DNA from: Candidatus Bathyarchaeota archaeon
GTDB lineage: Archaea > Thermoproteota > Bathyarchaeia > Bathyarchaeales > Bathycorpusculaceae
Direction of reading: 5' to 3'
Assembly (NCBI GenBank): GCA_018396705.1
Contig: JAGTQZ010000009.1
Location: 124,001-188,000, forward strand
DNA length: 64,000 nucleotides
Shown here one piece after another: positions 8,035-54,763 of this stretch (positions are counted from its first letter, which is position 1; every line of letters starts with the position of its first letter). Position numbers and translations under genes: made by a program. Below the pieces are notes generated by a model. That model saw nothing but the letters and a program-made list of their open reading frames with translations. It searched no databases and was not told where the DNA came from.

Positions 8035-8062
8035 TAAGGATACAGCTAAACCATAAGGCTTG

Positions 8063-35825: not shown

Positions 35826-35913
35826 GTTAAAGCTTGCTGAGCATCAAACTCCAGCGCAATGTTGCATGTTTTTCAAATTGTAAAAATCTAAGTCTCATTT
35901 TACCGGGAGTTAT

Positions 35914-35987
35914 GGGCCCGGCCGGATTTGAACCGGCGACCAACAGGTTATGAGCCTGTCGCTCTAACCTAGCTGAGCTACGGGCCC
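35914..35987 (-). tRNA. tRNA with CAU anticodon (elongator Met or Ile2), completed by the integrated element
   Basis: A complete 74-base cloverleaf on the minus strand: acceptor GGGCCCG/CGGGCCC, D-stem GCUC/GAGC, anticodon stem ACAGG/CCUGU with loop CUCAUAA, T-stem GCCGG/CCGGC. The lack of the G-rich anticodon stem and of A1:U72 excludes the initiator. Met and agmatidine-modified Ile2 share this anticodon and cannot be separated by eye. Positions 1-42 plus three upstream bases are repeated at 45972-46016, so the 5' part here is supplied by the element, and only the 3' part is original host sequence. Confidence 0.93.
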
Positions 35988-35990
35988 ACG
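35946..35990. repeat. Left attachment repeat (45 bp, inside the intact tRNA)
   Basis: Identical over 45 bases to 45972-46016; sequence identity stops at the bases on each side (A versus T before, T versus G after). It spans tRNA positions 1-42 and three leader bases. Confidence 0.95.
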
Positions 35991-35996
35991 TTTCTT

Positions 35997-36019
35997 TATC
36001 GGAAACTACGTTTCCGATA
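35997..36019. repeat. Perfect 10-bp inverted repeat beside the attachment core
   Basis: TATCGGAAAC, TAC, GTTTCCGATA: 10-bp arms and a 3-base spacer, 7 bases inside the left repeat. It lies within intN codons. It could be an integrase arm-binding site or an RNA hairpin just upstream of the tRNA. Confidence 0.7.
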
Positions 36020-36185
36020 CCTTCCTTTCCGTTTTTAAGGTTTTTCTGGTTTTCTGTCTGTTCTAGGGCTGCTTTTAAAGCTTGTTCAGCTATTCTGCTT
36101 ATGTTTAAGCCTTTGAGGCGGGCTTGAGCTATTAGTTTTGGCGGAAGCGTTATTCCCACTGTTTTCCGCAGTTCTCGTTTATGCC

Positions 36186-36224
36186 TTTTCACTCGAGTTT
36201 TTTGGCGGTTTTCACTCGAGTTTT
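36186..36224. promoter_or_regulatory. Two 16-bp direct repeats with a palindromic core at the integrase start
   Basis: The 16-base unit TTTTCACTCGAGTTTT occurs at 36186-36201 and 36209-36224, a 23-base period. Its core ACTCGAGT is self-complementary, and the first copy covers the intN GTG start. Tandem palindromic cores are typical ribbon-helix-helix operators, so the integrase's own N-terminal domain may repress its gene. Confidence 0.55.
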
Positions 36225-36568
36225 GAAAGGCTTTGTTCAGTGTGCAGCCCCAATCATTAAGGTTAAAATGCAGGCTGAATTTTTAAACTTTTCAGAGAAA
36301 CCTTCATTGTGCAACGTTTAAAGGGTTCATAAAATGGAGGACTGTGAGGTTTTCGTATTTCAGCCATGTTTAAACAAACAGCTAAAAGTTTAAAGAAACG
36401 TGAAAAAGTTTAAACAATGGCCATGATGAGGGGCTGCAGAAAACCAAGCCTTCCTAAATGGGGGCGATGCGGAAGATACCCTCGACTGAAGCAGGGGGCA
36501 TGTTCGCGACTAGGCATTTTTACACAACTTAGCTAGACTAAACCACGCAAAAATGGCTACTCTTGACT
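36225..36568. other. 344-base non-coding region with GTTTAAA iterations
   Basis: No gene is visible. GTTTAAA occurs at 36316, 36368, 36388 and 36408; the last three are spaced exactly 20 bases and two are extended to the palindrome GTTTAAAC. It sits next to intN and is the largest non-coding stretch of the element, so a replication origin or a regulator-binding array is plausible. The same heptamer recurs at 38592 and 38642. Confidence 0.5.
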
Positions 36569-36742
36569 TTAACCGTATTTTTCTAGGGCAGTTTGAATAA
36601 GTTGTATATCCTCTTCAAGCTGTGTTTTCGCCTTCCTAAAAATGTAGATTAGATTTCGCAGCCCGTTTAATTTTTCACCTGTTTCCACGAACCTTTTGAG
36701 GATTTCGCGTTCATGTTTTGTGAGGATGTAGGTGCGCGCCAT
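36569..36742 (-). CDS. Small coiled-coil protein (57 residues)
   Basis: Starts ATG 36742 and reads MARTYILTKHEREILKRF, then a charged amphipathic helix (FRKAKTQLEEDIQLIQTALEKYG). It is transcribed away from the 36826 gene, with a shared 83-base promoter region holding CATTTAAATATTT. Similar short basic helical proteins are frequent in archaeal elements; function unknown. Confidence 0.6.
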   Translation of the reverse strand: MARTYILTKHEREILKRFVETGEKLNGLRNLIYIFRKAKTQLEEDIQLIQTALEKYG

Positions 36743-36745
36743 TTT

Positions 36746-36826
36746 GACACGTCTCCGTTATTGTGTCTTTGTAATCGAAACATTTAAATATTTCGTCTGT
36801 GCTATTATGTCTTGGTGATAAAGACA
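36746..36826. promoter_or_regulatory. Divergent promoter region with two inverted repeats
   Basis: TATA-like TTTAAATA at 36783-36790 serves the plus-strand gene. GACAC/GTGTC (36746-36767) and TGTCTT/AAGACA (36808-36813 and 36821-36826) are two inverted repeats; the second encloses the ribosome-binding site GGTGAT and touches the ATG at 36826, so RNA folding or a repressor could limit translation. Confidence 0.45.
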
Positions 36827-37131
36827 TGACTGATGTGATAACGGTTAGGGGCCGCAGATACATCCGCTTGGACAGAACAACCTTCGCAGCCGTTGAGCCT
36901 TCAGTTGAATGGTTAATGGATGATGAAAGGTTTGTGGAAAAAGTCAGGCGGGCTTATAACGTGCAGGTTTGCTTAAACAACGGCTGGGGCTTCACGGTTA
37001 AGCATGAGGGCTACCGGATAAGGTTTGACTTGCCTAACGCAACAGGCTACAGGTTGCCAAACATATACGAAGGCTATGTGGAAGAGGAGCCTGAAACTGT
37101 CCAGCTAAGCCTCCTCGAGGTGACGGGTTGA
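36826..37131 (+). CDS. Hypothetical element protein (101 residues)
   Basis: Begins MTDVITVRGRRYIRLDRTTF at ATG 36826 with GGTGAT seven bases upstream; the frame extends to GTG 36799, but the ribosome-binding site supports the shorter form. Small, mixed alpha/beta, no recognised domain. Its stop overlaps the next start by one base, so it is the first gene of a small operon. Confidence 0.6.
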   Translation: MTDVITVRGRRYIRLDRTTFAAVEPSVEWLMDDERFVEKVRRAYNVQVCLNNGWGFTVKHEGYRIRFDLPNATGYRLPNIYEGYVEEEPETVQLSLLEVTG

Positions 37132-37343
37132 TGTTTGAGTATGAGGAATATGAAACAGTTCAAGTGAGGGTTCCTAAAGCGGTTCTCGATTTTCTAAGGG
37201 CTTTAAGAGTCAATGTTGAGGAATATCTGGAGAACACAATTATTGAGGGGTTTAAGGCGGATTTAAACGCGTCTTCCGGCCCATTCATGGAAAACATCAT
37301 TGAACGTTTTCCAGAGTTTAAGCGTTTCCTTGAAGGTTGTTGA
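37131..37343 (+). CDS. Small RHH-like element protein (70 residues)
   Basis: Starts at ATG 37131 inside the preceding stop (TGATG). EEYETVQVRVPKAVLDFLRAL followed by NVEEYLENTIIEGFKADL has the strand-helix-helix pattern of ribbon-helix-helix proteins. Probable DNA-binding regulator of the element; target unknown. Confidence 0.55.
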   Translation: MFEYEEYETVQVRVPKAVLDFLRALRVNVEEYLENTIIEGFKADLNASSGPFMENIIERFPEFKRFLEGC

Positions 37344-37379
37344 AGGATATCCGTTGTGGAATATGAGGGTTGAAAAGTT

Positions 37380-37805
37380 TTGCTGAATAGGGTTGAGGGT
37401 GTTTACATTATCAAGCTGCCGCCTGAGCTTTACGCCTGCATAGAACGCTTCGCAAAATTCAAACGTTTAAGCGTTGAAGAGGCTGCGTGTTACGCCCTAA
37501 AAAAGTTTCTGGAACATCAAAGCTTTTACGAAATCGCAAAACACGATTTAAGCTATTACCTGCGAAACCAGAGGATGGTGAAGGTTATACGGTTTTTAAG
37601 CCTTGGCAGCGGCTCACTAGGCCAAATTGCACGGGCTGTAGGCATCGACTATGGTAGAGCGAGAAGCCTTATTGAAAAACTGCAGGCCGCTGGAATCGTT
37701 TTAGTTTCACGTTTTGGAAAACGCGGCTACTGGATAACGTTAAACCATAGCAGCCCCATAACCCAAAAACTCCTCGAAATTCTAAACTCATGGTATGAAA
37801 AATGA
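37380..37805 (+). CDS. Predicted regulator with RHH-like and winged-helix parts (141 residues)
   Basis: The N-terminal part VYIIKLPPELYACIERFAKF with LSVEEAACYALKKFLEH looks like a ribbon-helix-helix, and the C-terminal part FLSLGSGSLGQIARAVGIDYGRARSLIEKLQAAGIV is a clear winged helix with wing RFGKRGYWITL. Start TTG 37380, after GAGGGTT. Two DNA-binding modules in one small protein suggest control of element promoters. Confidence 0.6.
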   Translation: MLNRVEGVYIIKLPPELYACIERFAKFKRLSVEEAACYALKKFLEHQSFYEIAKHDLSYYLRNQRMVKVIRFLSLGSGSLGQIARAVGIDYGRARSLIEKLQAAGIVLVSRFGKRGYWITLNHSSPITQKLLEILNSWYEK

Positions 37806-37840
37806 AGCATAAATTCAACCGTCAAATCTTCCTTTTAACC

Positions 37841-38569
37841 CTAAGTATTTGGCTTTAACGTGGAAAAATAAGCCTTTATGGGCCTTGTAACCTTTGGCGT
37901 TTCACCCTTTCTAATTTTCTCGGCGACTTTTTCAAAGTTTAAACCGTAAAGTTTCAAGGCTTCTTCTAACAGGCTGAAGTATGTCAGCTTCAAAGTTTCG
38001 TTGATTGTTAAGAGTTTTTGTTTGTTTGTGAAGGTGGCTTTGCAGATGTCCAAGGCTGTTTCAACAAGCTGTTCATATAATAGTTTAAATTGGTTTTCGA
38101 ATTTCTGGCTGCGCCACCATTCCTCAATTTCATTTTCTGAAAGGCTTTGTCCCAAAAAGAATGGCGGAGGGGTTAGGGTTGAAACAACCTTTGCCATGAT
38201 AAGGTGTAAAATGGCTTGAACCCATTTCAAAGTTTCCTCTAAGCCTTCTTCAGGCTTAGGCGGATATTCGCCTATCCATGCACGCCAAACCTCAAAAGGC
38301 ATGAGTATTATTGGAGTTTCCCCTTTAATTCGCCGGTAATAAACTGTAGGCGGATAAGTTGAAGCATCTACACGTCGACTAACTAGGCCTAAAGCCATCA
38401 GTCTCTTCAAATGCTTGGTTAGAGTTGCTCTGCTTATGCCCTGTTTTTCCGCCGTTCTAGCCAAAGTGGAGAAAGGTTTTTCTTCTTCTTCAAGCAGCTT
38501 TAGGATTTTCCTGGCTGATATCTCCATTCTTTCTTTGGGCGATACACCTGTAAACCATGGTTCAGACAT
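37841..38569 (-). CDS. Winged-helix regulator of the element (242 residues)
   Basis: Residues 20-70 form an ArsR/MarR-like winged helix (ARTAEKQGISRATLTKHLKRLMALGLVSRR, wing YPPTVYYRRI). The remaining 170 residues are helical with no known ligand domain. It is divergent from the AbrB-like gene, and GTTTAAATA sites at 38592 and 38642 lie between them, so it probably represses one or both. Confidence 0.68.
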   Translation of the reverse strand: MSEPWFTGVSPKERMEISARKILKLLEEEEKPFSTLARTAEKQGISRATLTKHLKRLMALGLVSRRVDASTYPPTVYYRRIKGETPIILMPFEVWRAWIGEYPPKPEEGLEETLKWVQAILHLIMAKVVSTLTPPPFFLGQSLSENEIEEWWRSQKFENQFKLLYEQLVETALDICKATFTNKQKLLTINETLKLTYFSLLEEALKLYGLNFEKVAEKIRKGETPKVTRPIKAYFSTLKPNT

Positions 38570-38677
38570 AGATTTACACCACTTAAACCAAGTTTAAATA
38601 AGAAAAACTTATATAAAACTTTTGCGCTTAATACTAAATGAGTTTAAATAACCTAAACTGACAGGGGCTAAGCGAAA
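38570..38677. promoter_or_regulatory. Divergent promoter with paired AGTTTAAATAA sites
   Basis: AGTTTAAATAA occurs at 38591 and 38641, exactly 50 bases apart, on either side of a TATA-like ATATAAAAC. The same core heptamer is iterated in the non-coding region at 36316-36415, so one element protein may bind all of them. Confidence 0.5.
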
Positions 38678-38833
38678 ATGCCATTAAGAAAAAAGCTGGT
38701 GAAGTTTGGAACAAGTCGCGCGGTAATACTGCCTAAACATTGGTTGGAGTTCCTTGAAGAGAAAACTGGGCAACGGATAGAGTATGTGCTGCTTGAAGTC
38801 AACAATGAGATACGAGTAATTCCCGAAAGTTAA
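38678..38833 (+). CDS. AbrB/MazE-type swapped-hairpin DNA-binding protein (51 residues)
   Basis: Begins MPLRKKLVKFGTSRAVILPKHW, the SpoVT/AbrB motif with the RAVILP strand, and ends EIRVIPES. Full AbrB domains are about 45-50 residues, so it is complete. It could be an antitoxin, but no toxin gene follows; a regulator of the replication protein downstream is more likely. Confidence 0.75.
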   Translation: MPLRKKLVKFGTSRAVILPKHWLEFLEEKTGQRIEYVLLEVNNEIRVIPES

Positions 38834-39085
38834 ACGAGGTAACTTTTGCTTTCCAAGGAGGTTATCATACGCGAGGTAAACCAGCGCTTGAAAATTGCCC
38901 GTTTCAAATCGCTGACAATCATGGATTGTTAAACTGTTTAGCTATTGATGGCACCGTCGGATATTGTAACTTCCAGCTTTGTCCGCGTCGGTTAAAACCA
39001 ATCAGGAGAATTTTACATCAAGCTTTCAATGATAACTTAAGGGTTTACTGCAATTTCAACCCTGAATTGATAAAGGTGGTGTCTA
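38834..39085. other. Spacer before the replication protein
   Basis: About 250 bases. A plus frame at 38926-39108 overlaps the next gene and has no ribosome-binding site that I trust. GGTGGTG at 39076-39082 is the ribosome-binding site of the PrimPol gene. Confidence 0.4.
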
Positions 39086-41473
39086 ATGCTTCTAAAAGAG
39101 GCTGCTAAAGCTTTTTGGCTTCAAGGATTCAACGTGGTGCCTTTTCGCTACGTTTATGAGGGTGGCGAGTTTAGGAAGCGTCCTCTGGTTGATTCCTGGC
39201 AGAAGTGGCAGATGCAGAGGCAAACATTGGAGGAGTTTGAAAACCTCAACTGGAATGATGCGGATGCTTTTGGGATAATCGCCGGTTACCCCAACCATGA
39301 GGGCTTATACATTGCATGCGTTGATTACGATGTAAAGCATGTTTCGGAAGAGGCTAAAGCAAAAGGAAAAGAGCTTCTTAAAAGGTTTCCAATAACGCGT
39401 ATGGAGTCCACGGTTAACAATGGTGTGCACTTGCTTTATTATAGTCGTGTAAAACCGCGGCCTGTTAAAGAGTTCCATGAAAGCCACGCCTTAGAGCTTA
39501 TCGCCGGCCCGCAGATAATATTGATGGCGCCAAGCAAAGGGTACAAAGCGTTAAACGATAACTCGCCCACAATCATCGAAGACGTTGAAGGATTGTTTTA
39601 CGAGGTTTTAGGTGTTTCGGATAGAAGGCAGCAGCCAACAATTGAGGATAGGGGGCTTCTTGAAGGCTGGCTAAACCAGATACTTCAAGCGTTGAATGTT
39701 AAAAGTGAGGGGCCAAACTATTACTATTGCCACTGTCCATTTCATCCGCCGGACAAGAATCCAAGCTTTGCAATAAATAAGCAGAAACTCTATGCGGTTG
39801 ACTATCATGACGGTAAAGTGTACAGTTTGAAGGATTTGGCGAAGGCTTTAGGGTTGCAGTTAGCCGGCTTAAATGAGGAAGGTGAAGGCCAACTTTACCG
39901 TTTCGCCGTAAAAATTCTAAAGTTTACGCCGATAGCTACGGACAGGCGCACGTATTTAATGTTCCGCTGGAATGGTAAAGCGTGGACGGATGACGCTGAA
40001 GGCTACATTCATGAAAAGCTTGTGGAGGCTGAGGGTGAGGACTTTAAACCTTATCATTTGACAACGTTGAGGGAGCTTGTTCAAGGCTTAACGTTTAAGG
40101 ATAACCTTGAGGAGCCGCCGCCCAACCTAATATGCTTCAACAATGGGGTGCTCGACTTAAACACGATGCAGTTGAAACCTCACAGCCCCGAATACTTTTT
40201 CAGAAACGTCATCCACGCGGACTACAACCCAAACGCTAAAGCTGAAAAGTTTCTAAAATGGCTTGAAGAAATCTTGCCAGACGAGGAAGCCCGCCGATGC
40301 ATCCAAGAAATGTTTGGCTACTGCCTGTACAGGGCGTATCCGCTGCATTACCTCTTCTTTCTAGTGGGCAACGGCCGAAACGGCAAAGGCACGTTAATGA
40401 GAACTTTGATTTCGCTTTTAGGCAGGGAAAACTGTGCAAGCGTGCCTTTGGAGAGGCTTCCAGAACGTTTCCAAACAACAAACCTGATTGGTAAACTGGC
40501 GAACATTGTTTCAGAGCCTAAAACCACCTTTGTAACAACGGAAATAATTAAAATGCTTACGGGAGAGGATTTAATAAGCGCTGAGTTCAAGGGTAAACAA
40601 AAGCTTGTGCAGTTTACAAATTATGCCAAGCTTATTGTTGTGGCTAACAGGCTGCCGCCCGTAAACGATACAAGCCTAGCATGGTGGAACCGCGTTATCG
40701 TAATCGAGTTTCCGGTGACAATACCGCCCGATAAAATTGTGCCAAACATAGAGGAACAGTGGCTTGACAGTCCGGAAGAGCGGAGTGGAATCATAAATTG
40801 GGCTTTAGAGGGGTTGAAAAGGCTGCTTGCAAACAGGCAGTTCACAAGAAGCATGGAAATGTTAGATGTTGTTGAACAGTATAAGCGGTGGAGCCAGCCC
40901 GCGCAATACTTCCTAGACAAATACTGTGAGTTTAAACCAAACTTATGGGTGGCTAAGAAGGAACTGTATGAAGCGTTCAAACTTGTTTGTGATTTGGAAG
41001 GACTACAAATAATCAGTGAAGAGGCCTTCAGCCGAGAGGTAAGAAAAAGGCCTAGAGTTTCAGCAGTGCAAAAGCGCGTTAATGGGAAAGTGACTTGGGT
41101 TTGGGTTGGTGTGGGTTTAAAGGCGGACTTAACGGTGTCATTAAAAGCGGAAGATGTAGGTGTAACAACTGTAACAAGTGTAACAAGTTCTCCGTACTCG
41201 TATAAAATGCAAGAAAACAATAGTGAAGAAGGAGAATTTTTAAGCAGTATAGAAAAACCTGTTACAGTTGTTACACTTGTTACACCTCCCTCTGTTGGTG
41301 AGCTTTTGAAGCAGTTTAGGGCTGCTTACCCTGAATGCTTTAACAACTGTGAGTTTTACGTTTGGTTTAACCGTAAAGGATTGCCAGCAAAGGAAATCGA
41401 AGCCCTCTTCAAGCTGCTGGTTGAACGTGGTGAGGTTTTCAGCACTTATGAGGGTGTTTGGAGGTGGGCTTAA
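39086..41473 (+). CDS. PrimPol-CHC2-SF3 replication protein
   Basis: The 795-residue replicase of the element. Residues 1-180 are an archaeo-eukaryotic primase/polymerase domain with the catalytic DYD in ACVDYDVKH and the histidine in NNGVHLLYY. A CHC2-like zinc finger (YYCHCPFHPPDKNPSF) lies near 210-225. The D5-like region and SF3 helicase follow, with Walker A VGNGRNGKGTL near residue 430 and the SF3 motif VVANRLPPVNDTSLAWWNRV near 517. A C-terminal winged helix-like tail ends it. This architecture is typical of small archaeal viruses and plasmids and of satellite elements. Confidence 0.9.
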   Translation: MLLKEAAKAFWLQGFNVVPFRYVYEGGEFRKRPLVDSWQKWQMQRQTLEEFENLNWNDADAFGIIAGYPNHEGLYIACVDYDVKHVSEEAKAKGKELLKRFPITRMESTVNNGVHLLYYSRVKPRPVKEFHESHALELIAGPQIILMAPSKGYKALNDNSPTIIEDVEGLFYEVLGVSDRRQQPTIEDRGLLEGWLNQILQALNVKSEGPNYYYCHCPFHPPDKNPSFAINKQKLYAVDYHDGKVYSLKDLAKALGLQLAGLNEEGEGQLYRFAVKILKFTPIATDRRTYLMFRWNGKAWTDDAEGYIHEKLVEAEGEDFKPYHLTTLRELVQGLTFKDNLEEPPPNLICFNNGVLDLNTMQLKPHSPEYFFRNVIHADYNPNAKAEKFLKWLEEILPDEEARRCIQEMFGYCLYRAYPLHYLFFLVGNGRNGKGTLMRTLISLLGRENCASVPLERLPERFQTTNLIGKLANIVSEPKTTFVTTEIIKMLTGEDLISAEFKGKQKLVQFTNYAKLIVVANRLPPVNDTSLAWWNRVIVIEFPVTIPPDKIVPNIEEQWLDSPEERSGIINWALEGLKRLLANRQFTRSMEMLDVVEQYKRWSQPAQYFLDKYCEFKPNLWVAKKELYEAFKLVCDLEGLQIISEEAFSREVRKRPRVSAVQKRVNGKVTWVWVGVGLKADLTVSLKAEDVGVTTVTSVTSSPYSYKMQENNSEEGEFLSSIEKPVTVVTLVTPPSVGELLKQFRAAYPECFNNCEFYVWFNRKGLPAKEIEALFKLLVERGEVFSTYEGVWRWA

Positions 41474-41773
41474 ATGGTTAAACTTGAAGTTGTACAGGGG
41501 CGGAAGGCTAAAGGCGACAAGGTTGTGCTGGTGACGGCCCACCGTGAACCCATGCGAATTGAACATGTCTTACAAATCATCAATGTCCTCTTTGAAAGCG
41601 AGGACGCATGTTATCCGCCAAGCGAGGGCTACATGGGACGGAAACTGCTTTACAAGGCGATAACCGCCGTTTACCATGGCGTTCCACTTCCAGTTGTCCT
41701 TGAAAAGTACAAACTGAAACAGGCGAGAAAAGGCCTCCACATCAGCTACCATTTAAAACGGGAGGGAGAATAA
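41474..41773 (+). CDS. Hypothetical element protein (99 residues)
   Basis: Starts directly after the replicase stop (TAAATG) and ends overlapping the next ATG by one base. GDKVVLVTAHREPM then a helical C-terminal half (YMGRKLLYKAITAVYHG). No recognised domain; conserved gene coupling suggests a replication or packaging accessory. Confidence 0.6.
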   Translation: MVKLEVVQGRKAKGDKVVLVTAHREPMRIEHVLQIINVLFESEDACYPPSEGYMGRKLLYKAITAVYHGVPLPVVLEKYKLKQARKGLHISYHLKREGE

Positions 41774-42057
41774 TGGTTCCTGAAAAAGCGTATGTTTGTA
41801 TGAAATGTTTACGGAGGGTGGATGAACATCAAAAAATCATTGTTCACCGTAACGGTGCAGCTTTCCTAACTTTCTGGTTCTGTCCGGACTGTTACCGTGA
41901 GCTTAAAAGCATATTAAACCAGCCGCCCAGCCTCGCGTTTTGCAAGTCATGTTTAGCCTCTTTTCTACATGACTTAATTCTGTGGGTGTTTTCCACAACC
42001 TGCGAGGATTTACATAAACATAAAATCTCCAAGGAGGCGGAGAAAATTGAATATTGA
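41773..42057 (+). CDS. Small zinc-finger element protein (94 residues)
   Basis: Two CxxC knuckles, CMKCLRR and CPDCYREL, about 35 residues apart form a probable zinc ribbon; a third CKSC follows. Start ATG 41773 overlaps the previous stop. It overlaps the next gene by 11 bases. Function unknown; such proteins often bind DNA. Confidence 0.62.
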   Translation: MVPEKAYVCMKCLRRVDEHQKIIVHRNGAAFLTFWFCPDCYRELKSILNQPPSLAFCKSCLASFLHDLILWVFSTTCEDLHKHKISKEAEKIEY

Positions 42058-42373
42058 AGATTCAGAAGCGTATTTACGGTTTAAATTAAAAACGCTTTTG
42101 AAGAGGCAGATTAAAAGAGAGAGGAAGTTTCAAAAACGTTTGGCAGATTTGAGGTTTCTAATCGATAAGTATGCAGAAACCGACGCTTATGAAAGCCTTC
42201 TCAATTTATTAAACGTTGCTTTGAGGGTTTCAGATTTCCATGTAGCCGCCCTCAAAGACATCCTCTCCGACTTTCACAGTCCTCAGTTTATGAGGATGAG
42301 ATTCGGCTCGATGAGGCCGACGGAGCCTGGCCACTCCGTTACAATGGAATACGGCTTAAACCGTAAAAGGTGA
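42047..42373 (+). CDS. Helical element protein (108 residues) before the capsid gene
   Basis: TTG 42047 is preceded by GGAGG. The protein is highly helical and basic at first (KTLLKRQIKRERKFQKRLADL). It lies 7 bases before the capsid-like gene, a place where scaffold or head-completion genes are common, but no such family is recognisable. Confidence 0.6.
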   Translation: MNIEDSEAYLRFKLKTLLKRQIKRERKFQKRLADLRFLIDKYAETDAYESLLNLLNVALRVSDFHVAALKDILSDFHSPQFMRMRFGSMRPTEPGHSVTMEYGLNRKR

Positions 42374-42380
42374 GTTTAAA

Positions 42381-43355
42381 ATGAGTGAACAGCCTGTTGA
42401 ACTTCACCTCAACCTAAGCGATTTATTGGAAACTGTGAAAATTGCTAAAACAGGCGGCAAAGGTGAAGTTTTGCCAACGCCAGTCAACGTTAACCGCCAT
42501 GCAAGAATAGCTGAGGCCCTGCGTAGAGGCAGCCTTAAAGAGCAGTGGGAAGCACCTATGCTTGGCGTTGACAAGCCAACCGCCAACATAATCGACTATA
42601 TTTACCGTTCAGACGAGATTCGCGGCCACCCTGGAGACGTAGTCAACCTAACAGTTGTTAAGCCCTTCAACGCTCAAGTGCTTGACACGCCTGGTTCAAG
42701 CTTAACCGCTGTTACAGGAATTTATAGCGTTATTCAAACAACGCTTCGCGAAGCCGGCTTCACCACTGAAATTCCCTACGCAGACGTTGAAAAAATAAGC
42801 GAAAGGCTGATAGCTGAAATTGAAGCTCAAGGGCAGACTGCAATTTTAAGAGCCATCGACAAAAAAATCTTAGACACAATAATAGCGGACACAGGCGTTC
42901 CAGAACTGAACAAGACAACTGCAGCCGTCTACTTTGACGCGGACTGGATAGCGGAGGCAATCCACACCATAGGCAGTCAAGGCAAAACCGTTAAACCCCA
43001 AGACTTTGTGCTAGTGATTAACTCATTAATGTATAAGGATTTGTTTGTAGACGTTGCCGGCTCTCAGCCTATTGTTTTCGCTTTACCAGAAACAATTAGG
43101 GAAGGCTTGATAACAACGCTTTTCGGCGTAAAAATTCTAGTAAGCGATTACTTGCCTACGCACACGACAAACAGTTACAGCGCCTTTCTAATCCATAAAA
43201 ACGCTGTGGTGTTTGCGCCTAAACGTGAAATGCTCTTTGAAACTGAAAGAGACACAGCGGCTAGAATTCTGAATTTGACTGGCACCTACACGTTTGGCAT
43301 AGCAATAGTCGACAACAAAGCAATATGCGAAATCAAAACCAAAGCCGTTAGCTAA
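42381..43355 (+). CDS. HK97-like major capsid protein candidate
   Basis: A 324-residue protein. The second half has the character of HK97-fold coat proteins: a backbone-helix-like segment (YADVEKISERLIAEIEAQ), then VLVINSLMYKDLF, GSQPIVFALPETIREG, LFGVKILVSDYLP, AFLIHKNAVVFAPKREMLFETERD and a terminal strand TFGIAIVDNKAICEIK. The pattern G-V-x-I-L-V-S-D followed by an alanine/valine strand and an acidic-arginine 'ERD' is seen across tailed-virus coats and encapsulins. GGTGAG lies before the ATG. An encapsulin-like shell is the main alternative. No protease or scaffold gene is recognisable. Confidence 0.65.
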   Translation: MSEQPVELHLNLSDLLETVKIAKTGGKGEVLPTPVNVNRHARIAEALRRGSLKEQWEAPMLGVDKPTANIIDYIYRSDEIRGHPGDVVNLTVVKPFNAQVLDTPGSSLTAVTGIYSVIQTTLREAGFTTEIPYADVEKISERLIAEIEAQGQTAILRAIDKKILDTIIADTGVPELNKTTAAVYFDADWIAEAIHTIGSQGKTVKPQDFVLVINSLMYKDLFVDVAGSQPIVFALPETIREGLITTLFGVKILVSDYLPTHTTNSYSAFLIHKNAVVFAPKREMLFETERDTAARILNLTGTYTFGIAIVDNKAICEIKTKAVS

Positions 43356-43406
43356 AACCAGCGGGACTCTTTGAGTAACCCCCCATTTTCCCCCTTTTTA
43401 GTCTTT

Positions 43407-43422
43407 GTTACCGTTCAACGTT
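43407..43422. repeat. 16-base GTTACCGTTCAA repeat, copy 1
   Basis: GTTACCGTTCAACGTT lies 23 bases before the tape-measure gene start. A copy differing at one base is at 44542-44557, before the RHH gene. Probable shared regulatory site. Confidence 0.5.
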
Positions 43423-43444
43423 CAAAAATTAAGGGAGGTGAAAA

Positions 43445-44524
43445 ATGTTGAGTAGTAATATTTCGATTCATATTTCAGCTGTTGATGAAGCTAGCCGAAT
43501 AATTGAGTCTGTGGGCACGGAAGTCCAGCAAACCTTAAGTGAAGTGAATAGTGTTGTTGAGGAGACGGGGCGCAACTGGAAGGAGACGCTTTTAACTGTT
43601 AAGGATGCAACTAAGGCTTTCAGCGGTTTAACCACAGCTGCGTGGAGCCTTTACCAGAGTATTGACAGAGTTCAGGACATGCAGTTGACGCTTGACAGGG
43701 CTAACTTGAAGGTTAAGGCTACGCTTAATGCTTTAGAAGACGCGCAGAGACGCTACAACGAGGCGGTAGCCAAATATGGCGTGGACAGTTCACAGGCCAA
43801 GGCTGCAGCCGACGACTTAGCTTTGGCTGAAGAACGACATAGACTGGCGGTTGAAGCTGCCCGCGAGGCGCATGAAAAATATAATGAAACGGTTTTTCAA
43901 ACGGCTATAATGGCGGTTCCACAGGCCATCACCATGATTTCAAGCCTTTCCGACTTACTGAAAAACTTGAAGCCCACCATTTCAAGTTTAAGCAGTGCAA
44001 TACAAGGGTTAAGCAGCAGCTTCACAGCTTTGAAGGGGCCGTTAACTGCGGCGGCGGTTTCCGCTGGAGCGTTTATGGCAACATTCACCGCTGGCTACGC
44101 GTTACTTCAAGCGTTGCCCGAGGATATTCGCGGCATAGCTGCAGCCTGTATGGTTGCCATAGGCGCGGTTACAGCTTTGGCGGTGGCTTGGATGGCGCTT
44201 CAGGGCGCCATGACTCTTGGAGTTGCAATTCCAATTATTATGGCGGCTGTAGGCTTTGCAGTTGCCGGAATCTTTGGACTCATCCAGCAGGCGAAGGCTA
44301 TGGCTGAAGGCGGCATAGTCACCAAGCCAACTTTAGCGTTGGTTGGCGAAAAAGGCCCGGAAGCCGTTATACCATTGCGGAAAGGCTTCAATTTCGGCGC
44401 ACAATACATCACTGTTTATCCAACCATCAACATTGGAACAGTTTCAAGCACTGTTGACTTGGAAACTCTACGTGAACATGTTGATAAGGGTATAGCGGAT
44501 GCTCTGCGGAGGCGGCTGCCATGA
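43445..44524 (+). CDS. Short tape-measure-like protein
   Basis: The 359 residues are arranged as in phage tail tape-measure proteins: an N-terminal coiled coil (residues 1-150; YNEAVAKYGVDSSQAKAAADDL), a hydrophobic middle (about 200-285, several membrane-like segments) and the C-terminal signature AEGGIVTKPTLALVGEKG followed by PEAVIPL, widespread at the end of tape-measure proteins. Typical tape measures are 600-2000 residues, so any tail built on this would be very short. Ribosome-binding site GGAGGTG. It follows the capsid gene by 89 bases. No other tail gene is seen in the element. Confidence 0.72.
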   Translation: MLSSNISIHISAVDEASRIIESVGTEVQQTLSEVNSVVEETGRNWKETLLTVKDATKAFSGLTTAAWSLYQSIDRVQDMQLTLDRANLKVKATLNALEDAQRRYNEAVAKYGVDSSQAKAAADDLALAEERHRLAVEAAREAHEKYNETVFQTAIMAVPQAITMISSLSDLLKNLKPTISSLSSAIQGLSSSFTALKGPLTAAAVSAGAFMATFTAGYALLQALPEDIRGIAAACMVAIGAVTALAVAWMALQGAMTLGVAIPIIMAAVGFAVAGIFGLIQQAKAMAEGGIVTKPTLALVGEKGPEAVIPLRKGFNFGAQYITVYPTINIGTVSSTVDLETLREHVDKGIADALRRRLP

Positions 44525-44541
44525 GTTGGCAAATAGACACT

Positions 44542-44573
44542 GTTACCGTTCAATGTTACCGGAAAATGTTACC
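44542..44573. repeat. Triple GTTACC iteration (13-base period)
   Basis: GTTACC begins at 44542, 44555 and 44568, exactly 13 bases apart, and the first copy belongs to the 16-base unit also found at 43407. It lies 24 bases before the RHH gene's GTG start. Confidence 0.55.
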
Positions 44574-44596
44574 ATTAAAATGGTGAGGGGGGCTAG

Positions 44597-45046
44597 GTGA
44601 AAAGGCAAATAGGCGTAAGAATAGACGCAAAAATTTGGAGTCAATTCAAAGAGCTGTGCAGCCAAAACCATTTAAGGCCTAACGAAGCGTTAGAAGCCTT
44701 CATTAAAACATGTTTAGATTATCAGAGCGTAGCTGATGTTTTAAGGAATTTGGAAGGAGCAAACGTTTCGGAAAAAAAGACTTACGAGATACAAGTTCGG
44801 AAAGTGTTAACTGAGCTGGATGCATATTTAACCTATGACATGAAACATGGCGAAGCGGAAAACTATTCAAACATTGTAGGCTGCATTGAAAACATTACAA
44901 AAATTTTGCCAAAAATCACCAATCAAAACTTAACCTCAGAAGCGGAAACAAAAATAAACGAGGCTTTGGCTTACTACCGGAAAATTTTCGAAAAAGGGGA
45001 AACACCGCCAGAAGACATCATCCTTTTCCGCGTAAAAATGAATTGA
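44597..45046 (+). CDS. Ribbon-helix-helix element protein (149 residues)
   Basis: GTG 44597 follows GGTGAGGGGGG. The N terminus MKRQIGVRIDAKIWSQFKELC with RPNEALEAFIKTCLDYQ is a ribbon-helix-helix; the rest is helical. It is the last plus-strand gene and converges with intC. Likely a late-region regulator or plasmid-type copy-control protein; the GTTACC iterations upstream may be its operator. Confidence 0.62.
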   Translation: MKRQIGVRIDAKIWSQFKELCSQNHLRPNEALEAFIKTCLDYQSVADVLRNLEGANVSEKKTYEIQVRKVLTELDAYLTYDMKHGEAENYSNIVGCIENITKILPKITNQNLTSEAETKINEALAYYRKIFEKGETPPEDIILFRVKMN

Positions 45047-45117
45047 AATGCTTAGCCCACTGCAAGTGAAATAAAAGCAGCTTGGAAAGCCTCCTAGAAT
45101 TTTACGAGGCATATAAT

Positions 45118-45971
45118 TCACAAGTTTATGTTTTTCGGTATTTCCGCCAAGCCTTTGAACACCCTATCCTTTAAGTCGGCTATCAAAGCTGGGTTGAAAT
45201 AGTTCCGCATAAAAACACTTCCGCTTATACGGCCCTGCAGAAAGTCTATTTCGCTTTGGCTAAGCCACCTAGTCATAAAGTTTGCATAAAACTCTCTAAC
45301 ATCTGGAAACCTACATTTTAAACCTCGCCTTTTAAGACTGTTCCAAACCTTGTAAACCGTAAGCTTCTCTTTCTGAGAAGCAACAGCCTCAACAAGGCTT
45401 TTGGGCACGATGCTTACAAAAACCTTTTTAGTTCTCCTCATAAACAAGTCGCGGAAACGGAAATGCTCAAGCGTTCCATTCTCCACATTATAATATTGAT
45501 GCAAGCAGCCTTTGCCTGCAAGCTCAACGATTAAATTATAACTGTTCACAGCCTCCTCAAGCCTCAACCCCGTTAAAACCACAAAATCCATAAAAATCCT
45601 AAGCTTTGAAACACGGCTCTTAACACGTCTAACCCAAGCTAAAACATTCTGGCCATCAACAGCCTTGGAAATCCTAGCTAAAAGAAGCTCCTCAGGCTTA
45701 ACATCCTTCCACTTCAACCCAAAATTTTTAACCAACACTTTAAACTCTCCATGAACCCCCAAAAACTTGGCAAGGCTTGAAAGCGCACACATAGCCGTGT
45801 TACGCATGCCTTCAGGCAACAAACATAAAGGCGTCAAGTCACCCGTAAACAAACAGGCAGCATACTTCTTGGCCATTCGAAACTTCGCCTTAGCAAACCT
45901 CCACGATTTATGGTTATCCAGCAGAAAACGTTTAAAATCACTCCAATTTACGTGAAAGAAGCCCAAAAAAT
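45118..45971 (-). pseudogene. Integrase C-terminal part (intC), SSV-type tyrosine recombinase
   Basis: The catalytic domain of the partitioned integrase. The first catalytic arginine is in TGLRLEEA, a second arginine in FPDVREFYANFM and the nucleophile tyrosine in MRNYFNP near the end, the layout of archaeal SSV-type enzymes. TTG 45966 is the only start-like codon, with no ribosome-binding site; the frame stays open upstream through the repeat, as expected for a gene cut by integration. Joined to intN it gives 366 residues. Excision should restore the whole gene, so it is not a decayed gene in the usual sense. Confidence 0.88.
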
Positions 45972-46016
45972 GGTTATGAGCCTGTCGCTCTAACCTAGCT
46001 GAGCTACGGGCCCACG
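45972..46016. repeat. Right attachment repeat (45 bp; tRNA 5' fragment)
   Basis: Second copy of the tRNA 5' part, lacking the 3' half. Because the tRNA is on the minus strand, this copy is the original host 5' end, and the TATA-like CATAAAAG complement at about 46036-46043 is its original promoter, 23-30 bases upstream of tRNA position 1. Confidence 0.92.
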
Positions 46017-46152
46017 GTTGATAGATTTTGTTGCGCTTTTATGAAAGTTTTACGGTTGAAATTTATATTAGATGCGGATAACCCTTTTAATTGTCTTTTC
46101 ATAGATTGTTTGCTGAATTTCCTATTTGTTGCTCCCAAGAATTGGTGGTTAA

Positions 46153-50114: not shown

Positions 50115-52325
50115 TCACTCTTCGTTCATAAAAATGTCCGGACTTGGTTTTTCCGGCGGTAAGCCTTTGCGTTCGCGGATTTGCCTAATAACCTCTGCGG
50201 CTATGTTTTCTGGAACTCTTTCCCAATTGTTGAAAGAGCATTGCCAAAAAGCATGTCCAGACGTGGCTGAACGCATTTCAGCCGATAAACCAAAGGTTTC
50301 CGCAACTGGTATAATCCCGTTAATCAATGTTAAGACACCCCTTTGCTCGGAAGCTAAAACTTTGCCTCTTTTTCTGGTTATGATTTCTATGCATTTGCCA
50401 ACCCATTGGGCTGGAACCGAAACCGTAATGCGGTACACCGGCTCCAGAAGTACTGGTCTAGCCGTTAAAAACGAGCCTAACATTGCCTTACGTATGGCCG
50501 GCAAGATTTGGGCTGGGCCGCGGTGCACCGGATCCTCATGAAGCTCTGCGTCTATGAGCTTAACTTTCACTCCGCGCATGGGTTCTTCACATAACGGCCC
50601 AGCCTTACACGCCCACTTGAAGCCGTCTATGATCATTTCCCTTATTTCGTGTAGGTGTTGCATGTCCTTAGCCATGTTTAATAATATGTTGCGGTGTTTG
50701 TCTATTGCCCAAACATTCTCAGCTTCTTCAATTGGCCAGTTAGCCTCTTTAAAAAGTGTGTTTTCAATCTGTTTTCCGTCAATTCCTTCAGTGATTTCGT
50801 TCTTCTCCATGAGAGTTATGGCCTTTTCCTCTAATGGTTCAACTTGAACCCAGAACTTGTTGTGTTTATTTGGGCTTTCAGCCATGACTACAGCACCCTT
50901 TTCTAAAATGCCCTCACGGTAAATAACTATGGGTTTTGATGTTATGATCTCTAAGCCTCCGCCGTAGTCTCGCAGAAACTTCACGGCAATTTCTAGGTGT
51001 AGTTCGCCCATTCCGCTCAGCAAATATTCACCAGTTTCCATGTTCACGGACGTAGCAAGATTGGGGTCTTCTATGGAAAGCCTGTTCATGGCGTCTATAA
51101 GGCGTGGCAGGTCTTTCGGATTTTTTGGTTCGACAGCTATGGTTATGACCGGCTCCGAAACGTATCTGATACGTTCAAATGGCACCATAACGTCTTTGTG
51201 GGTTATATCCACAAGAGTTTCGCCAGCCCTAGCTAAATCTAATCCCAAAAGGGCTGCGATGTTGCCGGCTGTCACTTTGTCCACAACTTCTCGGAAGGCC
51301 CCCATGTATATGGAAACTTGCTGGATTTTGTAATCCCTTCGAGCATCTACAAGATAGACATGGTCATCCTGCCTAATGGTGCCGCAGAAAAGTCTTCCAG
51401 TTGCCACAAGCCCCGCATTGGGATCCGTCTGAACCATCGTGATGCACATAACCGTTGGTCCATTGTCATCACAGTTAAGCATAGCTTGCCCAATCTCAGA
51501 GTTTACATTACCCTTCCATATTTTTGGCAGTCTATACTTCTGGGCTTCAATGGGGTTTGGAATGTTTTTCACAATCATGTCTAAGATGGCATTATGTAAC
51601 GGTATAAGCTTTGCAAGTTTTTGCCGTTCACCCTTATTGTAGGCGTCTATTATATCGCTGAACTTTACACCCTTTTCTTGGGCGATCTTTACTGTGAAGC
51701 CCCATTTGTGAAGCGCTGAGCCGAAAGCCACAGTCTCTTTTTGAGGGTCTACTTTCCATTTGTCCTTAAACTCTGGTTCGGCGTAAATTTCTATTAAACT
51801 GTTAAAGTCGCGGATTATTCGCAAAAACTTGTCTTGGATTTCGCCGGGTGTAAGCTTCAACTCATTAACTAAACGGTCAACTTTGTTTATGAAAAGTACC
51901 GGGCGGGTTCTTTCTTCTAGGGCTTGCCGTGTTACGGTTTCTGTTTGAGCCATAACCTCTTCTACGGCATCAACAACAACCACAACGCCGTCAATGGCCC
52001 TTAGGGCCCTGGTTACTTTACCCGTGAAGTCCACGTGTCCCGGCGTGTCAACAAGATTTATGAGGTATGGATGTCCAGCGATTTCATGTAAAAGTGAAAT
52101 GTTTGCAGTTTTAATGGTGATCCCGCGTTTCTGCTCCTCTTCCAAATAATCTAAGGCCCGTGCCTCACCGGCTATTTTAGGCGAAAGTAAACCAGCCTTC
52201 GCCAAAAGCGAGTCCGTCATGGTTGTTTTGCCATGGTCTATATGGGCTATTATACCAATGTTACGTATGTCCTCTTTCTTATGCATCAGTTTGAGTACTT
52301 CACTGGTTTGTTTAAATCTCGGCAA
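50115..52325 (-). CDS. fusA: Translation elongation factor EF-2 (canonical paralogue)
   Basis: The translocation GTPase. G1 is AHIDHGKTTMTD, switch I holds EEEQKRGITIKTANIS, G3 DTPGHVDF and G4 NKVDRL. Domain IV carries DPVHRGPAQILPAIRKAM, whose histidine is the diphthamide site. The frame begins at 52415, but TTG 52323-52325 gives MPRFKQTSEVLKLMHKKEDIRNIG, matching archaeal EF-2 N termini and a length of 736, so I start there. It is head-to-head with a divergent paralogue. Confidence 0.93.
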   Translation of the reverse strand: MPRFKQTSEVLKLMHKKEDIRNIGIIAHIDHGKTTMTDSLLAKAGLLSPKIAGEARALDYLEEEQKRGITIKTANISLLHEIAGHPYLINLVDTPGHVDFTGKVTRALRAIDGVVVVVDAVEEVMAQTETVTRQALEERTRPVLFINKVDRLVNELKLTPGEIQDKFLRIIRDFNSLIEIYAEPEFKDKWKVDPQKETVAFGSALHKWGFTVKIAQEKGVKFSDIIDAYNKGERQKLAKLIPLHNAILDMIVKNIPNPIEAQKYRLPKIWKGNVNSEIGQAMLNCDDNGPTVMCITMVQTDPNAGLVATGRLFCGTIRQDDHVYLVDARRDYKIQQVSIYMGAFREVVDKVTAGNIAALLGLDLARAGETLVDITHKDVMVPFERIRYVSEPVITIAVEPKNPKDLPRLIDAMNRLSIEDPNLATSVNMETGEYLLSGMGELHLEIAVKFLRDYGGGLEIITSKPIVIYREGILEKGAVVMAESPNKHNKFWVQVEPLEEKAITLMEKNEITEGIDGKQIENTLFKEANWPIEEAENVWAIDKHRNILLNMAKDMQHLHEIREMIIDGFKWACKAGPLCEEPMRGVKVKLIDAELHEDPVHRGPAQILPAIRKAMLGSFLTARPVLLEPVYRITVSVPAQWVGKCIEIITRKRGKVLASEQRGVLTLINGIIPVAETFGLSAEMRSATSGHAFWQCSFNNWERVPENIAAEVIRQIRERKGLPPEKPSPDIFMNEE

Positions 52326-52543
52326 GACAAAATCCCCAGCGCTAGCTTTTGGCAGTCCACAAGGGTTAAGAGACAAGGTTTCATGTAGTCTTAAAAGTCT
52401 TGTGTTTTCATGCAAAAAGTTAATATTGTTCAGTTCGCTTTTGCATGTAGCCTAATTTAACGAGTGGCATAAAATGTTTGCTGGAAATCATGCAGACCAC
52501 TTTCAGTTTTCAAGCTTTTGGTTAGTGTGGGGTATAATTAGCC

Positions 52544-54763
52544 ATGGGACGTTATAGGCAGATAGAAGACATAGTTAAACTAATGACACAAACCGAGCGA
52601 ATAAGAAACACAAGCATCATTGCCCACGTAGATCATGGGAAGACAACTCTTTCAGACAGCCTTCTGGCGGCAGCCGGCATCATAAGCGAGCAAGTTGCCG
52701 GCCAAAAGCTTTTCCTTGACTCTTGGGAGCTTGAACAGAAAAGGCAGATGACCGTTTTCGCCTCCAACATAAGCCTAGTCCACACCTACAAGGGCGTCGA
52801 CTATCTCATAAACCTCATTGACACGCCGGGACACATAGACTTCAGCGGAAACGTCACCAGAAGCCTAAGAGCTGTTGACGGTGCCCTCGTGGTTGTTGAC
52901 GCCGTAGAAGGTCCCATGACTCAGACCGAAACGGTTTTGATGCAAGCCCTCCGCGAGAGGGTTAAGCCCATTCTATTCATCAACAAAGTTGACCGCTTGA
53001 TTCGAGAGTTGAAGCTTTCCCCAGAAGAAATACAGAAGAGATTTGCAAGGATAATTACGCGAATAAACACCATCATCGAGAAATATGCACCTCCAGAACA
53101 CAAGAAAGATTGGCAAGTTAAAGTTGAGGACGGCCGGGTTGCCTTCGGCTCGGCACTTCACAAATGGGGCTTAAATCTGCCACACATGAGAGCTAAAGGT
53201 GTAACTTTCAAGGAGATTATTGAGGCCTACTCTGGTGAGCCAGAGGATGTTGGCCGTAAGGTTGACGCTCTTAGTAAACGCATACCCGTCTATGAACCAA
53301 TTTTAGACATGTTCTGTGAGCATCTCCCAAGCCCGAAGGATGCCCAACCTTATAGGCAAAGCCAAATCTGGCCAGGCGATGTTAACAGCCCCGTTGGAAA
53401 GGCCATGGCCAAGGTTGATCCAAACGGGCCTCTCCTAATGTGTGTAACGTTTATTGAAGTTGACCCCCACAGCGGTGTTGTCGCCATTGGAAGGGTTTTC
53501 AGCGGCACTGTAGAAAAGGGGAAAGTTGTCCGCCTTATAACAAGCCGACAGAAAGGCACAATACAGCAGGTTTACATGAGCATGGCTACCGACAGAGTTA
53601 TCGTCGAGCGGATTCCAGCGGGCAACATTGCCGCTTTGTCAGGCTTACCCTCCATACACGTTGGTGAAACCCTAGCCGAGGAAGGTGTTGAAACCGCACC
53701 TTTCGAAGCGCTGAAATATGTTTCAGATCCCGTTGTCACGGTGGCTGTCGAGCCGGAAAACGTTAAGGACCTTCCACTCTTTGACAAAGTTATTCATAAG
53801 ATTACGCTTGAAGATCCAAACCTCCACTTTAAAATAGACAAGGAAAGCGGTCAGTATTTGCTGAGCGGAATGGGCGAACTACACCTAGAAGTTACAGCTT
53901 ACCGAATGCAGGAAGCTGGTTTGAAGGTCAAAATGAGCAAGCCTATAGTTATTTACCGTGAAACCATAACCCGCGACTATAAAGGCCCGCCTGTTATGGG
54001 TAAAAGTCCAAACAAGCATAACAGGCTTTGGGTAACCGTTGAAAAGCTTCCAGAAGAAGTCATAGAAGCCATTAAAACCGGAAAGATTAATGAGATGCAA
54101 ACCCGCGACGAACGCCAGAAAATCCTAATGAAAGAGTATGGTTGGCCTGCTGAAGACGCCCGCAACGTGGTTGCTATAGAGGGCACAAACATCCTAGTCA
54201 ATAGAATTAAGGGAAGACAATATGTTGAAGAAGTTTTAGACCACATTAAGTCAGGGTTCCGCGACGCTGTCACCACAGGAGTTTTAGCCAAAGAACCCAT
54301 GTACGGGCTTAAAGTAAACCTTGAAGACGTTCTCATTCATGAGGATCCGGTGCACCGCGGCCCAGCCCAAATCTTGCCGATGACTTGGCGTCCTATCTGG
54401 GGCGCTTTCCTTTTAAGTGAGCCGAAGCTTTTAGAACCCATCCTAAGCTTTGAATGCAAAGTGCCGAACGACTTTGTCAGCCCAGTAATATCGCTGTTAC
54501 AAAAGCGAAGGGGCAGAATCCTCGATATGGTAAACGAGGAAGACATGGTCATAGTTAAGGCTGAACTTCCAGTAGCTGAATCATTCGGAATAGCTGACGA
54601 GCTTCGCTCCTCAACGCAAGGCCGCGCCTTCTGGGCAACCCAATTTAGCCGATGGGCTCCAGTGCCGGAATCCATGCAGGCAGATGTGATAAGACAGATT
54701 CGTGAACGTAAAGGCTTACCGCCTACACCACCGAAGCCGGAAGAGTTCTGCGAAGAAGAATAA
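52544..54763 (+). CDS. Translation elongation factor EF-2 paralogue (divergent)
   Basis: A 739-residue second EF-2. G1 AHVDHGKTT, G3 DTPGHIDF and G4 NKVDRL are intact, so it should bind GTP. Two functional regions differ from the canonical copy: switch I reads LEQKRQMTVFASNIS instead of EQKRGITIKTANIS, and the domain IV tip reads HRGPAQILPMTWRPIWGAF instead of HRGPAQILPAIRKAM. The diphthamide histidine is kept. EF-2 duplicates occur in several archaeal lineages, with unsettled roles; this one could act under special conditions or in ribosome recycling. Confidence 0.9.
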   Translation: MGRYRQIEDIVKLMTQTERIRNTSIIAHVDHGKTTLSDSLLAAAGIISEQVAGQKLFLDSWELEQKRQMTVFASNISLVHTYKGVDYLINLIDTPGHIDFSGNVTRSLRAVDGALVVVDAVEGPMTQTETVLMQALRERVKPILFINKVDRLIRELKLSPEEIQKRFARIITRINTIIEKYAPPEHKKDWQVKVEDGRVAFGSALHKWGLNLPHMRAKGVTFKEIIEAYSGEPEDVGRKVDALSKRIPVYEPILDMFCEHLPSPKDAQPYRQSQIWPGDVNSPVGKAMAKVDPNGPLLMCVTFIEVDPHSGVVAIGRVFSGTVEKGKVVRLITSRQKGTIQQVYMSMATDRVIVERIPAGNIAALSGLPSIHVGETLAEEGVETAPFEALKYVSDPVVTVAVEPENVKDLPLFDKVIHKITLEDPNLHFKIDKESGQYLLSGMGELHLEVTAYRMQEAGLKVKMSKPIVIYRETITRDYKGPPVMGKSPNKHNRLWVTVEKLPEEVIEAIKTGKINEMQTRDERQKILMKEYGWPAEDARNVVAIEGTNILVNRIKGRQYVEEVLDHIKSGFRDAVTTGVLAKEPMYGLKVNLEDVLIHEDPVHRGPAQILPMTWRPIWGAFLLSEPKLLEPILSFECKVPNDFVSPVISLLQKRRGRILDMVNEEDMVIVKAELPVAESFGIADELRSSTQGRAFWATQFSRWAPVPESMQADVIRQIRERKGLPPTPPKPEEFCEEE

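Follow-up and report, generated by a model that had tools for sequence, protein, structure and literature searches.

What is a chromosomal element that encodes the coat and the tape measure of a tailed virus, yet neither a portal nor a terminase? The question is raised by a locus in the window, i.e., the 64,000 nucleotides analysed here (positions 124,001 to 188,000 of contig JAGTQZ010000009.1, assembly GCA_018396705.1, Candidatus Bathyarchaeota archaeon), where an earlier note, made from the letters alone, had seen a minimal or satellite virus. The best reading of the sequence is that the element is a plasmid-virus hybrid, in which an integrative plasmid carries a tailed-virus coat and tail ruler.

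The limits of the element, which were absent from the earlier note, are set by the following features:

35912-35988, minus strand: tRNA-Met (CAT), the integration target (ARAGORN, Rfam), which in sibling species adjoins tmcA without insertion
35946-35993: attL, a 48-nt direct repeat (tRNA 5′ half), 98% identical to attR at a spacing of 10,026 bp
35994-36192, minus strand: int(N), the N-terminal part of a split integrase, ribbon-helix-helix-like, running on into attL; its frame joins that of int(C)
45118-45966, minus strand: int(C), the C-terminal catalytic part of the split integrase (PF16795, E = 1.5e-7; phrog_5127, E = 4.7e-12)
45972-46019: attR, the direct repeat matching attL

The att repeats bound a 10,026-bp integrative element with intact ends in the Bathyarchaeia chromosome. 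When int(N) is joined through the att repeat to int(C), which begins just inside attR, an uninterrupted 366-aa integrase frame results. As in archaeal integrases of the SSV type, att lies inside the integrase gene, which is split on integration and whose frame is restored in the circle, and the target is a tRNA; the element departs from that type in its att, which overlaps the tRNA's 5′ half, and in the ribbon-helix-helix-like character of its N-terminal integrase piece. Homologs of int(N) also mark the far end of related elements. In two sibling species of the same genus the site is empty, with flavodoxin, tRNA-Met and tmcA forming a continuous stretch. The empty site and the intact ends therefore identify the element as a lineage-specific insertion. 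An Rfam scan for structured RNAs found only the tRNA-Met. Elsewhere in the window, two divergent full-length EF-2-like genes lie side by side in opposite orientation (50115-52415, minus strand; 52544-54763, plus strand).

Between its ends the element carries a replicase, a set of small genes and repeats:

36799-37131, plus strand: 110-aa backbone protein with homologs in related elements (G032:C12, G000:C4)
37128-37343, plus strand: 71-aa small protein (open reading frame)
37380-37805, plus strand: 141-aa winged-helix backbone protein; the second element of the same genome and G032:C12 have homologs
37841-38569, minus strand: 242-aa winged-helix regulator (Pfam HTH_24, E = 4.5e-7)
38678-38833, plus strand: 51-aa AbrB/antidote-like protein (TIGR02609, E = 0.0016, below the cut-off)
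39086-41473, plus strand: 795-aa primase-helicase replicase with a primase-like N-terminus and an SF3 helicase (TIGR01613, E = 1.2e-63; D5_N, DUF5906)
41152-41293: TTGTTACA(C/G) iterons in two inverted arms, within the replicase gene (sequence repeats)
41474-41773, plus strand: 99-aa backbone protein, a signature of the element family (homologs in L038, L330, L331, L342)
41773-42057, plus strand: 94-aa zinc-ribbon-like protein with CxxC pairs; no relatives found
42047-42373, plus strand: 108-aa charged protein immediately upstream of the coat gene; no relatives found
43399-43422, plus strand: 24-nt repeat (TGTTACC motif), upstream of the tape-measure gene (repeat search)
44534-44573, plus strand: second copy of the 24-nt repeat, extended by three 13-bp TGTTACC iterons that precede the 149-aa gene (repeat search)
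44597-45046, plus strand: 149-aa ribbon-helix-helix-like backbone protein, weakly matching a 63-aa protein that follows the replicase in the second element of the same genome

That the element encodes its own replicase of the PrimPol-SF3 type, as proposed earlier, is corroborated by the TIGR01613 match and by a profile match of residues 59-647, covering primase and helicase, to PDB 7ola. The replicase is 28% identical (E = 6e-32) to that of the 5,350-bp Sulfolobus islandicus plasmid NC_001771, which we take to be pRN1, and a plasmid replicon with a primase-helicase replicase is what a pSSVx-like satellite would have. The iterons within the replicase gene form 38-nt inverted arms of TTGTTACAC/G, encode VTVVT-like repeats in the protein and are a possible replication origin. 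Many genomes of the same family have relatives of the replicase, and int(C) split-integrase homologs are found in 31 of the 101 genomes searched. Where boundaries or gene maps were readable (L036, L038, L330, L331, L334, L335, L336 and L342), the related split-integrase or replicase elements of Bathyarchaeia are 3-8 kb long and free of capsid genes; the shared backbone includes the 99-aa gene after the replicase and, on the left side, the 110-aa and 141-aa genes. Judged by these genes, the backbone is that of an integrative plasmid and, since its relatives are without capsid genes, the element is read as a plasmid that gained virus genes, not as a small virus.

Two other loci of the same genome resemble parts of this backbone. 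On the same contig, past the right end of the window, a second replicase-bearing element (L039, G000:C9:191-198 kb) encodes a 1018-aa primase-helicase and a 417-aa integrase adjoining tRNA-Pro, and has no structural genes. At a third locus (L361:9107-9418, G000:C4) a relative of the 110-aa gene, at 79% nucleotide identity, is followed by genes that resemble another small replicon.

The two virus-derived genes lie to the right of the replicase:

42381-43355, plus strand: HK97-fold major capsid protein (MCP), 324 aa (PHROG matches, AlphaFold2 fold, relatives)
43445-44524, plus strand: tail tape-measure protein (TMP), 359 aa (full-length homology to viral TMPs)

The MCP frame closes an operon-like series, in which the genes for the replicase, the 99-, 94- and 108-aa proteins and MCP overlap or sit no more than about 10 bases apart. 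An HK97-like coat had been claimed for this frame, and the claim is borne out by matches to PHROG major head protein families (phrog_544, E = 1.7e-9; phrog_267, E = 2.5e-7), by the predicted fold and by its relatives. The AlphaFold2 model, built from a profile of eight relatives, is of moderate confidence (mean pLDDT 70.5, pTM 0.67), with very low confidence for the N-terminal 37 residues. Nevertheless, the comparison with HK97 coats and encapsulins that the earlier note had called for returned the HK97 fold rather than another one: the best 50 PDB matches listed are all HK97-fold capsids of tailed viruses or gene transfer agents (GTA), with no encapsulin among them (best E = 6.7e-15, probability 1.00), and matches in a viral library agree. 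The closest relatives are found in virus contig L127 (58% identity) and in Bathyarchaeia (pro)viruses (48%); the named ones, in Hecatellales and further Bathyarchaeota MAGs, place the host in the class Bathyarchaeia. The loci of the closest relatives have, unlike the element, portal and protease genes next to MCP, and also terminase on contigs of sufficient length. MCP retains 20 of the 23 positions that are invariant among its relatives, and the coat looks to be under constraint. Ahead of the conserved RRGSLKEQW motif, MCP has about 20 residues fewer than L123, the 48% relative. In tailed viruses, this part of the coat often serves as scaffold, and its shortening may bear on head size. Prohead protease and MCP are fused in one frame in several archaeal tailed (pro)viruses (L124:870-2387, L128:5601-7127, L213:8987-10858, L005:3-1925).

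The second protein had been described as a 359-residue tape-measure-like protein of "mini" size. Its tape-measure identity holds, as it is 42-47% identical from end to end with the 348-363-aa TMPs of complete tailed (pro)viruses (compared at full length with those of L099, L101 and L133-L138), and the homology extends over the whole protein, beyond the EGGIV tail alone. Its size is not unusual, however, and TMPs of full viruses in this group measure 348-395 aa. In the complete viruses the TMP gene follows the tail tube gene, with a further small gene in between, and precedes the distal tail genes; among the homologs, a longer one (530 aa) carries an insertion midway, as expected of a ruler. 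The branch of the element TMP is long (0.89), and 61 of the 83 positions invariant among viral TMPs are retained, versus 97-100% in most viral TMPs, so that the protein may be under changed or relaxed constraint. The 24-nt repeats on both sides of the TMP gene contain the element's own TGTTACC motif, which suggests that the region is under the control of the element. In the provirus of G086 (L103), the TMP and portal genes are each split in two frames (7376-8482, 11099-12377), which suggests that this provirus is decaying.

Beyond these two genes, searches of Pfam, PHROGs and NCBIfam matched no open reading frame of the element to a terminase, portal, protease, connector or tail tube. Just four proteins are longer than 250 aa (replicase, MCP, TMP and the integrase), all other frames encode at most 242 aa, and the sole ATPase found is the replicase helicase. 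Hence, the element lacks the portal and large terminase that define an autonomous tailed virus, and the earlier observation that terminase, portal, protease and other tail genes are missing is upheld. A terminase or portal under another guise was also looked for and is rejected on the same matches and frame sizes.

How did the pair come about? MCP and TMP are 90 bp apart in the element versus 3.6-9.2 kb in the 10 virus loci with both genes, and their close relatives all lie in tailed (pro)viruses. Among about 120 replicase-family loci, none besides the window (and copies of it) has MCP or TMP. Likewise, the search of related genomes for the order replicase-coat-tape came back empty: no second element with both genes was seen in 257 genomes of the class or in IMG/VR scans. 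Single-protein scans of IMG/VR with MCP and replicase gave no close relatives of the element, and the replicase profile gave only distant helicase matches there (24-36%), at loci with neither MCP nor TMP. In the MCP tree the element is sister to L127 (100/100). In the TMP tree it groups with the G117/L134-L136 lineage, within a clade supported at 99/97 and apart from the TMPs of L127 and L213. Forcing the element TMP together with L127 is rejected by the AU test (p = 0.0001), as is forcing it with L127 and L213 (p = 0.0006); these TMP tests carry the discordance between the trees, and the corresponding test of MCP with G117-type coats, which are almost unalignable, gave p = 0.097. The rejection argues that the pair does not derive from a virus like L127 and, as the nearest lineages of MCP and TMP differ, the pair looks assembled rather than left over. 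One viral TMP clade was found with two different MCP types. Since viruses in this group reshuffle the same modules, a single mosaic donor is possible, whereas simple decay of a provirus would hardly explain the pair.

What the pair might do is suggested by analogy with pSSVx (PMC4027180, PMC9608457) and pMP1 (PMC11921389), on account of which we regard a helper-dependent satellite of a tailed virus, with a pSSVx-like mode of life and with MCP and TMP acting in helper assembly, as the most likely single explanation, if still somewhat short of probable. In this scenario, the plasmid would excise and be replicated by the replicase that it encodes. On infection by, or induction of, a tailed virus, the element's MCP, alone or mixed with that of the helper, and its TMP would join the helper's assembly line, and the helper's portal, terminase, protease, connectors, tail tube and adsorption proteins would package and deliver the 10-kb circle. 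MCP and TMP set head size and tail length, and exactly these two genes would therefore allow particles fitted to a 10-kb genome. This size falls within the 8.1-17.1 kb that modelling gives for genomes in T=3 tailed capsids (PMC7762592). The earlier idea of a satellite that borrows its packaging from a helper virus thus stands as the best-supported reading, albeit one in which helper dependence and packaging are things we infer from a single instance, with no second element of the same gene set found and with a distant coat in the resident provirus. More tentatively, and with less confidence than in the satellite role as such, we suggest that the element may represent an archaeal satellite of a new class, in which an integrative plasmid would give only the coat and tape-measure "rulers", taken from different virus lineages, while the helper would give portal, motor and tail for particles sized to the 10-kb genome. 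Satellites with a coat but without portal or terminase are not described in the satellite literature cited here.

A complete tailed provirus with TerL (phrog_2, E = 9e-40), portal, protease and MCP resides in the same genome (C1:80-102 kb, L105-L107), and helper-type viruses therefore infect this host. Its MCP is only about 24% identical to that of the element, in the C-terminal part, and a search for packaging-site-like sequence common to the two gave only chance-level matches. Because its coat is distant and no such shared sequence was found, this provirus is not an obvious helper for the tailed-virus genes of the element, and the natural helper is more likely to be a virus of the L127/L213 type. 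The only tape-measure-like protein of the resident provirus is 181 aa long (phrog_28, E = 0.002; a homolog of similar size occurs in L216), implying an extremely short tail. A 26-nt perfect match to the element in G210 was discarded as a CRISPR spacer; it lies in ordinary sequence without repeats.

Comparison with known systems puts the element between several of them. pSSVx, the Sulfolobus plasmid-virus hybrid and SSV2 satellite, carries the SSV genes A154 and B251 (PMC9608457) and forms particles with the help of SSV2 (PMC4027180). Like the element, it is a small archaeal plasmid-type replicon with a few virus-derived genes. However, its helper is spindle-shaped where that of the element would be a tailed HK97 virus, and the element has acquired structural genes (coat and tape measure) and integrates into the chromosome via a split integrase. 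The 13.3-kb Marinitoga plasmid pMP1, which spreads in particles of the tailed virus MPV1 (PMC11921389), is bacterial and carries no known structural genes. The capsid-forming PICIs (cf-PICIs) and the Streptomyces satellites MulchRoom and MiniFlayer encode their own MCP (PMC10690885), together with terminase, portal and more, and borrow tails; the element has none of the terminase, portal, protease and connectors that accompany MCP in capsid-forming PICIs (PMC10690885), yet it has a tape measure. In P4 and the SaPIs, whose genomes are of similar size, the helper head is fitted to the small genome (PMC10690885). The idea is the same, but there scaffold-type proteins reshape the helper coat, whereas the element supplies coat and tail ruler. 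The other elements of its split-integrase family are without structural genes, and the source families of MCP and TMP, the head-tailed proviruses of Bathyarchaeia and Nitrososphaera Pro-Nvie1, differ from the element in having complete head, neck, tail and terminase modules. The Charybdis elements, which are about 4.6 kb long with a double-Greek-key putative capsid and no hallmark proteins (PMC12324425), were considered as kin and rejected.

Two further readings keep the coat and the tape measure but give them another role, or none. Foremost among them, although unlikely, is a passive hybrid: recombination with a single mosaic tailed virus, or the loss of most of a provirus module, would have left MCP and TMP in the plasmid as bystander cargo on the way to decay, with no part in particles. 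The single instance, the long TMP branch and the loss of family-invariant positions are consistent with this passive state, and the reshuffling of MCP and TMP types among tailed viruses means that one mosaic donor could explain the discordant trees. Yet both frames are complete and MCP is kept at family-invariant sites, TMP sits between copies of the element's own repeat motif, and random deletion would have to clear everything before, between and after two whole genes while sparing these, the att sites and the replicase. Still less likely, in our view, is an interference module, in which decoy coat and tape measure would co-assemble with those of an infecting virus and poison them, protecting host and plasmid, with the plasmid itself not packaged. 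Both genes are critical for assembly and divergent from those of the resident virus, and faster evolution of TMP would fit an arms race; against this, PADLOC gave no match beyond generic winged-helix/CARF-like ones, and the conservation of MCP is that expected of a working coat. We know of no precedent for a plasmid that uses whole MCP and TMP in this way, although interference with tail assembly is described as an antiviral strategy in bacteria (PMC11364771). The satellite role is placed ahead of both.

The remaining explanations are far less probable. The novel minimal virion that the earlier note offered as an alternative, i.e., an element that builds and packages its own particle by a novel mechanism, fits the small predicted capsids in genome length (10 kb; PMC7762592), but is disfavoured to the point of being barely plausible because the element has no packaging genes at all: it lacks portal, terminase, protease, tube, connector and adsorption protein, the replicase helicase is the only ATPase found, and wherever the flanks of an MCP relative are long enough to tell, the virus is one that uses portal and terminase. 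That the coat is a domesticated, encapsulin-like shell with no link to transmission is equally improbable. Encapsulins share the HK97 fold and the genome neighbourhood is small, but the best 50 PDB matches listed are to capsids of phages, archaeal viruses or GTAs, the nearest sequences are tailed-virus MCPs (58% and 48%), TMP lies next door, and 35946-46019 holds no cargo-like gene. Finally, virus reads could have been joined to a plasmid element during metagenome assembly, which here consists of 9 contigs and is judged from the assembled sequence. We consider such a chimera very unlikely: the operon-like frames run continuously from replicase to MCP, element repeats flank TMP on both sides, int(N) and int(C) are complementary at the two ends, and the contig measures 222 kb with host flanks that are syntenic in siblings.

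In bacteria, satellites that exploit tailed viruses are well documented, and the archaeal case discussed in the cited literature is a satellite of a spindle-shaped virus, pSSVx. A plasmid with exactly a coat and a tape measure would stand between piracy plasmids, which have no structural genes, and capsid-forming satellites, which have complete head modules. The satellite reading would place such parasites in the abundant and largely uncultured Bathyarchaeia, and the element offers a testable case of a plasmid starting to become a virus.
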